Positions 16,273 through 19,140 of a stretch of DNA of 34,852 bases are shown one piece after another. This DNA comes from Dehalococcoidia bacterium (GTDB lineage Bacteria > Chloroflexota > Dehalococcoidia > SZUA-161 > SpSt-899). The notes below the pieces were generated by a model. The model was not told where the DNA came from. It searched no databases and saw nothing but the letters and a program-made list of their open reading frames with translations. Every line of letters begins with the position of its first letter. The first letter of the stretch is position 1. The position numbers and the translations under genes are program-made. Where the stretch lies: assembly GCA_028711995.1 (NCBI GenBank), contig JAQTRE010000020.1, forward strand, positions 1-34,852, in the 5' to 3' direction.

Positions 16273-16677
16273 ATGAGTAATAAAATAGTCAAAAGCGATA
16301 ACCAATGGAGGGCGACTCTGACGTCTCGCCAATATGCCATCACCAGACTCAAGGGGACCGAACCCGCTTTCTCGGGCGAATACTGGAACACAAAAGCGAT
16401 CGGCAAATATCGTTGTGTCTGTTGCGGTAACGACCTGTTTAGTTCGGAGACCAAGTTCGATTCCGGAACCGGCTGGCCCAGCTTCTGGGCTCCGATCTCT
16501 GAGGAGAGTATCCTCACGACCCCTGATGAAAGCAGCGGAATGCTTAGAACCGAGATGATTTGCGACCGATGCGGGGCGCATCTTGGCCACGTCTTCGAGG
16601 ACGGTCCCGCACCTACCGGACTGCGCTACTGCACCAACTCTGCCGCGCTGAAATTTGATGAAACGGCCAAGGAGTAA
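16273..16677 (+). CDS. msrB: Peptide methionine-(R)-S-oxide reductase MsrB
   Basis: A 134-aa enzyme that reduces the R epimer of methionine sulfoxide in proteins. The zinc site is visible as two CxxC pairs (C48/C51 and C97/C100), with the signature [11 protein letters not shown] and the catalytic cysteine C120 in RYCTNSAAL. The catalytic residue is an ordinary Cys (TGC), in contrast to the neighbouring MsrA. Length is typical for a single-domain MsrB. The gene is 3 bp upstream of msrA. Confidence 0.96.
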
Positions 16678-16680
16678 TCC

Positions 16681-17361
16681 ATGAATTCGAATAACACTAT
16701 TGCCGATTCCCTCATACCGCCGATAGACATACATGCACCAACCCGAATCCAGACGGCCACGTTTGGAATGGGCTGATTCTGGGGCCCCGATTCCCGGTTC
16801 GGGAACATCAAAGGGGTGGTCCGGACCCGTGTGGGATATGCGGGAGGCACCACGGCTGCCCCTTCGTACCACAATCTTGGCGACCACACAGAGACAATCC
16901 AGATCGACTATGATCCGGCTCAAGTATCGTACAAAGAATTGCTGGACGTGTTCTGGAGCAACCACAACTGCAGACAACCGACATGGTCGCGACAATACGC
17001 ATCCCTTATCTTCTTTCACAATGAAGAGCAAAGAAGATTAGCCCAGGATTCTCAAAGCCGTGAGTTCGCCAATTCAAAGAGCGACATCTTCAACCGAATT
17101 GTCCCCGCCACGTCATTCTATCTGGCTGAAGGGTATCATCAGAAATACTATCTACGCCACCACTCCCTTCTGGAAAACGAATACAAGGCCATATATCCCG
17201 TGGTGAACGATTTTGTCAATTCCACCGCCACCACACGCGTCAACGCTTATGTCGGAGGCCACGGGACACTCGCCTCGCTACAGGAAGAGATCGATATCCT
17301 CGGCCTCTCTCCGGAAGGCAGCGCAAAGCTCCTGGAAATCACGCGCAGACTGGCCAATTAA
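16681..17361 (+). CDS. msrA: Peptide methionine-(S)-S-oxide reductase MsrA, probable selenoprotein (TGA at codon 32)
   Basis: MsrA reduces the S epimer of methionine sulfoxide. The reading frame from the ATG at 16681 is open to 17361 (226 residues) except for one TGA at 16774-16776. That TGA is exactly where MsrA has its catalytic cysteine: the family motif GCFWG appears here as G-TGA-FWG, preceded by TATFGM and followed by VVRTRVGYAGGT. A SECIS-like hairpin follows at once. The rest is intact, with YHNLGDHTETIQIDYDP and a normal length. Selenocysteine MsrA is known in a few bacteria and an alga. The alternatives are a nonsense mutation or sequencing error. No C-terminal resolving cysteine is seen; C97 is the only other cysteine. 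The stop codon overlaps that of the opposing flavoprotein gene in TTAA. Confidence 0.85.
16785..16816 (+). promoter_or_regulatory. Bacterial SECIS-like hairpin after the msrA TGA
   Basis: Stem TTCCCG/CGGGAA (16791-16796 with 16800-16805) around GTT, so the apical loop can be read as GGTTC. It is extended below by GA/TC and CCCC/GGGG with small internal loops. The apical loop lies about 19 nt after the TGA, and begins with GG then T, as in known bacterial SECIS elements. Confidence 0.65.
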
Positions 17362-19073
17362 CGGCAGGTTTCCCGCATCTCGATCTGCCGATGTGCGCCA
17401 TAGCTCTTGATCCCACCGGACATATTTCGGGACTTAAACCCGTGCTGCAGAAGGGCACGGGAGGCATAGTACGAGCGTTGCCCTACCGCACAATAGGTCC
17501 GTATCTCTTTATCCGGCGCTAACTCCCCCATTCTGGCGCGGAGTTCTCCGAGCGGGATATTCACTGCCCCCGGAACGTGACCGGCACTGAATTCGGCCAC
17601 CTCACGGACATCCAGAATCGTCGCCTCCGCCTTATCGATCTCATCCCAGTGGTTCACCGGGGCATCACCTCGAAGGGCATTGGCAGCAATCATACCTGCA
17701 ATATTCACCGGATCCTTGGCTGTGCCGAATGGCGGTGCATAGCACACTTCGGCTTCCTCCAGATCGAAAACGGTCGAGCCCTTCTGGATGGCCATGGCGA
17801 TCACATCGATGCGCTTCTCCACGCCCTCCTCGCCGACGGCCTGCGCCCCCAGGACTCTGCCGTCATCGGTTGAGAAAATAAGCTTGATCGTCATGGGTTT
17901 GGCGCCAGGATAGTAATTGGCATGATGGCCCGGATGAAGATAAATCTTTTCGTATTGAGCCGGCTTACCATGGATACCGGTTTGATTCAGCGTTTTCTCA
18001 GTGGCTCCGGTTGAGGCAACCGTCAGGTCAAAAACCTGACATACCGCCGTTCCTTGAGTTCCCCGAAATCTGGCATTGCGTCCCAGGATAACATCGGCTG
18101 CGATTCGTCCCTGACGATTGGCCGGTCCTGCGAGGGGAATGAGTGTCCACTCATCGGTAACAAAATCCTTCACCTCAACGGCATCGCCGACCGCCCATAT
18201 CCGCTCGTCGCTGGTGCGCATTTGATCGTCGACCCGGATGCCTCCCCGCTTGCCAATCTCGATGCCCGCCGCCCTTGACAGACTAACTTCCGGACGAACA
18301 CCAATGGCAAGGATAACCAGATCTGCCATATGCCTTGCGCCCGACTTCGTTGACACGGCGAGAGTGCCATCGGAATTCTGCTCAAATCCGGAGACAGCAT
18401 CGCCGAGGCAAAGCGAAACACCTTTTTGAGCCAGGTGATTCTGGATAGGCACGGCCATCTCGGGATCAACCGACGCCATCACCTGCGGCAATGCCTCCAC
18501 AATAGTGACGGAGAGACCCCGATTGACCAGATTTTCCGTCATCTCCATGCCGATGAAGCCGCCACCGACTACTACCGCGCGTCTTGCGTCTCTCTCATCG
18601 ATCCACTGCCGTATCTGATGACTATCCGGGATCGTTCGAAGGGTGAGAATGCCGGGGAGATCAATTCCCCGTATTGGCGGTCTTATCGGCGCTGACCCCG
18701 GGGCGAGGACAAGCGCATCATATCTCTCCCGATAGACGTTTCCGCTTTTTGCATCTTTTACCTCGATCTCTCTTCTCTCCCGGTCAATAAGCTGGACTTC
18801 ATTCTCCAATCGGACTTCGATGTTGAATCGCTTTCTGAACAGCTCGGGCGTTGCCACCAGGAGCGCTTTCTCTGTCTTGATCACGTCGCCCACATAATAT
18901 GGCAACCCGCAATTGGCAAAGGAGACATAGGGACCGCGCTCAAAAATGATAATCTCGGCCCCTTCAGAGATTCTTCGCGCCCGGGCAGCGCAGGAAGCCC
19001 CCCCCGCCACGCCGCCGACGATCAGTATCCTCTTATGATTATCCAATCGACTTTCCGGTATACCCTGATTCAT
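17358..19073 (-). CDS. CoA-disulfide-reductase-like FAD/NAD(P) oxidoreductase with C-terminal rhodanese domain
   Basis: A 571-aa flavoprotein of the CoA disulfide reductase / NADH peroxidase family. It shows an FAD-binding ILIVGGVAGGASCAARARR at the N-terminus, the redox cysteine C55 in SFANCGLPYYVG, an NAD(P)-binding VVVGGGFIGMEM, a second FAD motif IWAVGDA, and a dimerisation domain. The last 100 residues are a rhodanese domain with DVREVAEF and an active cysteine in TYCAVGQRS. Fused forms are known to reduce CoA disulfide, polysulfide or persulfide. The start chosen is the ATG at 19073 because AAGGAG lies eight bases upstream; an upstream in-frame start at 19112 has no such site. It lies tail to tail with msrA and has its own strong promoter. 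Confidence 0.92.
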   Translation of the reverse strand: MNQGIPESRLDNHKRILIVGGVAGGASCAARARRISEGAEIIIFERGPYVSFANCGLPYYVGDVIKTEKALLVATPELFRKRFNIEVRLENEVQLIDRERREIEVKDAKSGNVYRERYDALVLAPGSAPIRPPIRGIDLPGILTLRTIPDSHQIRQWIDERDARRAVVVGGGFIGMEMTENLVNRGLSVTIVEALPQVMASVDPEMAVPIQNHLAQKGVSLCLGDAVSGFEQNSDGTLAVSTKSGARHMADLVILAIGVRPEVSLSRAAGIEIGKRGGIRVDDQMRTSDERIWAVGDAVEVKDFVTDEWTLIPLAGPANRQGRIAADVILGRNARFRGTQGTAVCQVFDLTVASTGATEKTLNQTGIHGKPAQYEKIYLHPGHHANYYPGAKPMTIKLIFSTDDGRVLGAQAVGEEGVEKRIDVIAMAIQKGSTVFDLEEAEVCYAPPFGTAKDPVNIAGMIAANALRGDAPVNHWDEIDKAEATILDVREVAEFSAGHVPGAVNIPLGELRARMGELAPDKEIRTYCAVGQRSYYASRALLQHGFKSRNMSGGIKSYGAHRQIEMRETCR

Positions 19074-19140
19074 TTCATCGTCTCCTTTCCCGAGAACTTC
19101 CGGCCTGTGCACCCTTCAATCATTGCTCATCGTACTGTGC

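Follow-up and report, generated by a model that had tools for sequence, protein, structure and literature searches.

A catalytic-site UGA in msrA of a Dehalococcoidia bacterium, very probably decoded as selenocysteine in a protein of the Clostridium oremlandii type

MsrA was reported as a bacterial selenoprotein family in 2006 (PMC1794560) and 2008 (PMC2398784), with examples from Syntrophobacter fumaroxidans and marine metagenomes that we liken to the present gene by description, and a review of 2026 (PMC13188914) counts it among the selenoproteins of prokaryotes. The closest described system is the selenoprotein MsrA of Clostridium oremlandii (CoMsrA; PDB 4lwj, 4u66), which carries selenocysteine (Sec) within a GUFWGPD motif and has a C-terminal helical domain that is needed for its activity (PMC4333827). 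CoMsrA uses glutaredoxin, not thioredoxin, as its reductant and dimerises via the catalytic residue (PMC4479559).

Here we describe an msrA gene in a window of 34,852 nucleotides, by which we mean the whole stretch of DNA that was analysed, from contig C20 of a Dehalococcoidia assembly of 3.32 Mb in 240 contigs. Its product shares with CoMsrA the position of Sec, the GUFWGPD motif and the C-terminal helical domain; it differs in belonging to another phylum, in having a Cys at residue 97 where CoMsrA has no Cys at all, and in being encoded directly after a cysteine-type msrB. It is a well-supported new member of a selenoprotein family that had been described in Clostridium. The observation stands, although its kind is familiar, and what we add is a codon-level comparison within that family.

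The msrA gene, its active site and its relation to CoMsrA

The features of the window used below are as follows.
16273-16677, plus strand: msrB with a catalytic Cys (TIGR00357, 182 bits; PF01641)
16681-17358, plus strand: msrA, 226 amino acids, with a UGA very probably read as selenocysteine at residue 32 (PF01625, TIGR00401, CoMsrA alignment)
16774-16776, plus strand: TGA that encodes the catalytic residue (Sec32), the sole in-frame stop (homologue codon comparison)
16791-16805, plus strand: SECIS-type hairpin with apical loop GGUUC at 16796-16800 (synonymous-codon test, pair counts, pairing probabilities)
16969-16971, plus strand: Cys97 codon; apart from the catalytic position, the protein has no further Cys (homologue comparison)
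17164-17358 (boundary approximate), plus strand: C-terminal helical domain (CoMsrA alignment to residue 222; PF20939)

The msrA frame runs from an ATG at 16681 to a TAA at 17356-17358 and comprises 226 codons with one internal stop, the TGA of codon 32, which lies at the catalytic residue in the motif GMG-U-FWGPDSRFG. An earlier note, made from the sequence alone, had described exactly this situation, a single TGA at the catalytic codon of an otherwise intact msrA beside a cysteine-type msrB, and both parts of that description hold. The translation exceeds the curated cut-offs of both MsrA profiles (PF01625, 138.8 bits against 23.7; TIGR00401, 120 against 108.1). A search of the genome with an E threshold of 0.001 gave one msrA match, and an all-cysteine spare therefore seems to be absent from the cell, within an assembly that is 96% complete. 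The msrB catalytic motif, RYC, contains Cys, and three bases separate the end of the gene from the msrA start codon; the two probably form one transcription unit. An msrB likewise lies near msrA at seven of the loci compared (L027, L056, L058, L061, L062, L071 and L100).

Automatic annotation would label this gene as broken or begin it late, at 16816, and indeed a mechanical search for open reading frames lists 16816-17361. That the true product starts at the GTG at 16816 and is a short functional protein lacking the catalytic residue is nonetheless extremely improbable, given that it would be left without the GUFWG active site, which is invariant across the MsrA homologues compared. The complete frame is very probably intact.

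Alignment to CoMsrA structures covers residues 22-222 of 226 (E 1.5e-60) and scores far above the alignments to other MsrA structures. An AlphaFold model built from eight sequences is of middling confidence (mean pLDDT 67) and was used for fold matching only, where it placed CoMsrA entries first; it is too weak for a reading of the distance between Sec32 and Cys97. By sequence alignment and predicted-structure match, the nearest solved structures are thus all CoMsrA. Helices are predicted for residues 162-225, and PF20939 matches the helical domain just below its cut-off (E 0.0002; 21.5 bits against 23.7). Cys MsrA proteins of haloarchaea, Domibacillus and Planococcus have the same length, the same domain layout and about 40-50% identity, but in them the catalytic codon specifies Cys and there is no excess hairpin.

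Cys97 is shared by 15 of the 47 Sec forms but by none of the 41 Cys forms with the helical domain. Its presence places the protein outside a 1-Cys type defined by having no Cys beyond the catalytic residue; other Sec forms vary in their extra Cys residues, so membership of the wider group does not depend on the 1-Cys state. One might guess that Cys97 is a resolving partner of Sec32, exclusive to the Sec forms of this subfamily, and that it permits a selenenylsulfide recycling absent from cysteine-free CoMsrA. We regard this as unlikely, in that 12 of the 15 carriers belong to one verrucomicrobial clade.

The last base of msrA is overlapped by a convergent gene (17358-19112, minus strand) whose product resembles a CoA-disulfide-reductase-like flavoprotein with a C-terminal rhodanese domain, with scores under the equivalog cut-offs.

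The hairpin and the exchange of Cys and TGA among homologues

The putative SECIS element has the form UUCCC-GGUUC-GGGAA, with five pairs and a spacing of 19 nt from the TGA. Its loop, spacing and number of pairs are inside the published range for bacterial SECIS elements (criteria of PMC13188914), and its core pairs have computed pairing probabilities of 0.96-1.0 in a 61-nt context. The 15-nt hairpin alone has an energy of -5.2 to -6.4 kcal/mol, and a longer segment, 45 nt counted from the UGA, extends the hairpin and reaches -15.2 kcal/mol (SECIS criterion, <= -7.5). An Rfam search at the site found no RNA family. The 61-nt fold shows no excess stability over dinucleotide shuffles (z 0.54), and the window alone is therefore no proof of the hairpin.

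The proof comes from comparison with other genes. We assembled 110 MsrA loci from relatives and a genome collection, a set picked by likeness to the query, in which the catalytic codon is TGA in 46 and TGC or TGT in 64. Holding the protein constant, we compared the fold of a 24-nt segment starting 12 nt after the first UGA base with that of synonymous recodings. TGA genes fold better than their recodings (median z -2.1; p < 0.05 in 70%), whereas the Cys genes compared do not (median z -0.4; p < 0.05 in 9%). Two stem pairs vary on both sides together among the 46 TGA genes: at offsets 18/30 from the UGA, 26 genes have U-A and 15 have G-C, and at 17/31 the counts are 20 for C-G, 9 for U-A and 6 for U-G. 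In the 3' arm, glycine is encoded by GGG in 35/46 TGA genes versus 7/46 Cys genes, and every one of the 46 TGA genes has GU in the loop. The covariation score of the hairpin is 0.284; slid registers reach 0.149 at most, and shuffles average 0.147. One verrucomicrobial clade has its upper stem pairs offset by one, with a bulged A. Taken across the TGA genes, the pattern appears to fit the published model of the bacterial SECIS element (PMC13188914). The comparison thus upholds the earlier note's claim of a hairpin with a GGT-type apical loop at the right distance behind the codon.

The homologues also bear on whether an ordinary msrA has simply had its Cys codon turned into TGA by a nonsense mutation or a sequencing error, so that the gene is broken or the base wrong. 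The window does rest on a single assembly. Nevertheless, the identical TGA is present in 45 other genes from independent genomes, the reading frame remains intact after it, the hairpin is conserved beyond the needs of the protein, and the genome holds a full Sec machinery (see below). For the family as a whole a defect is refuted by the 46 TGA genes, and for this gene we consider it very unlikely, as the earlier note had argued of a random nonsense mutation. The selenocysteine reading that it had proposed instead is strengthened by the exchange of Cys and TGA at this exact codon, which it had put forward as a check, and by the hairpin that accompanies TGA. The 46 TGA and 64 Cys homologues illustrate an exchange at one codon alongside an RNA element. 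The earlier note's view that Sec MsrA is rare in bacteria was only partly right: TGA is common within this MsrA subfamily (46/110), in a set picked by likeness to the query.

According to record titles, the TGA genes come from Thermodesulfobacteriota, Myxococcota, Nitrospirota, Chloroflexota, Planctomycetota, Verrucomicrobiota, Bacillota, Synergistota and Actinomycetota, many of them from MAGs. On the MsrA tree, whose deep branches are weakly supported, Sec and Cys must have been exchanged three times or more. A strong SelA match is found in 31 of 34 TGA-msrA genomes versus 3 of 16 Cys-msrA genomes (Fisher p 7e-7, with related genomes treated as independent); among the relatives, SelA is present in 5/6 TGA-msrA genomes. 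The three of 34 TGA-msrA genomes without a strong SelA match may reflect incomplete assemblies. Three genomes of Planococcus and Planomicrobium (L098, L123 and L128) have a Cys msrA of the same subfamily and yet a strong SelA match.

One Cys gene, from another Dehalococcoidia MAG (L056:3091 and the next 40 bases), reads TGC where the query reads TGA, still has a nine-pair hairpin (z -5.5) whose loop is UGUUC, and comes from a 1.9 Mb assembly that gave no SelA match. With a Cys codon, a retained hairpin and no selA match, the element looks like a recently retired SECIS, and the gene is probably a recently retired selenoprotein gene. Loss of the loop G was considered for this hairpin and rejected, as UGUUC retains GU. 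SECIS-like remnants in Cys genes have already been described (PMC1794560).

Selenocysteine machinery and the proposed reaction

The genome of the window contains the full set of selA, selB (lacking its 5' end), selC and selD, the genes whose presence the earlier note had named as a check on its reading and whose absence, on its terms, would have refuted it. Two of the components are located as follows.
L019:2715-2805 and L020:4279-4370, minus strand in each: tRNA-Sec pair (ARAGORN, Rfam)
L021:1483-2532, plus strand: selD with its own in-frame TGA at GAG-U-ASK (profile match; selenium site)

SelA (564 bits; cut-off 268) and SelD (397 bits; cut-off 125) are complete. SelB covers its profile from about position 112 onwards; the contig edge lies within the gene and removes the first ~111 positions, which leaves the score under the cut-off. 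ARAGORN identifies both tRNA genes, each with the anticodon TCA, as tRNA-Sec, and both exceed the Rfam tRNA-Sec cut-off. The stretches read from the sel contigs have a GC content of 0.52-0.54, similar to that of the window (0.529). Among 19 genomes compared, a Dehalococcoidia MAG has the EF-Tu nearest to that of this genome (73%), which is suggestive of its placement.

An open TGA in the msrA frame could also be expected if UGA were read as some other residue, such as Cys or Trp, through a changed code or a suppressor. We judge this to be exceedingly unlikely in a genome where both TCA-anticodon tRNAs found are tRNA-Sec, where selA, selB and selD are present, and where both Cys-to-UGA sites observed, residue 32 of MsrA and the one in SelD, are known Sec sites.

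The evidence of codon, frame, conserved hairpin, machinery genes and family membership thus makes it almost certain that msrA is a functional selenoprotein gene of the C. oremlandii type in which UGA codon 32 is read as selenocysteine. From these sequence features we infer how readthrough, catalysis and reduction would proceed. By binding the hairpin downstream of the UGA, SelB would deliver Sec-tRNA-Sec, and the ribosome would read codon 32 as selenocysteine. The selenol would then attack methionine-S-sulfoxide, freeing methionine and leaving the selenium oxidised as a selenenic acid. A thiol would next reduce the selenium, with glutaredoxin the likeliest donor by analogy with CoMsrA. The adjoining Cys MsrB would repair the R isomer. 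A search for a selenoprotein glutaredoxin partner like that of C. oremlandii found two glutaredoxin-family genes in the genome, both free of in-frame stops.

The two tRNA-Sec copies are nearly identical and lie on different contigs, with about 311 surrounding bases 83% alike. On contig C4, a frame that by eye resembles a tyrosine recombinase (L020:4376-5599, minus strand) ends a few bases upstream of tRNA-Sec, an arrangement like that of mobile elements inserted at selC.

A candidate small selenoprotein beside tRNA-Sec

Within 12 or 29 nt downstream of each tRNA-Sec gene lies a 54-codon frame with an in-frame TGA at codon 19 and a strong hairpin immediately behind it.
L019:2534-2698 (contig C195) and L020:4081-4245 (contig C4), minus strand in each: candidate 54-amino-acid membrane selenoprotein, two copies (in-frame TGA and hairpin)

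The two products follow the pattern METSL.IATAVLAFLTAA-U-G.SIHRGWIDRSV.KWHGTFAFLTVAVAIAAAV.. and have no family match above cut-off. Among 147 related genomes a clear match was found only in the window's own genome, and viral contigs held no clear relative. Between the copies there are 26 base differences, of which 18 fall at third codon positions; most of the changed codons are synonymous on both sides of the TGA. Judged by its sequence, the frame looks like an undescribed small membrane selenoprotein.
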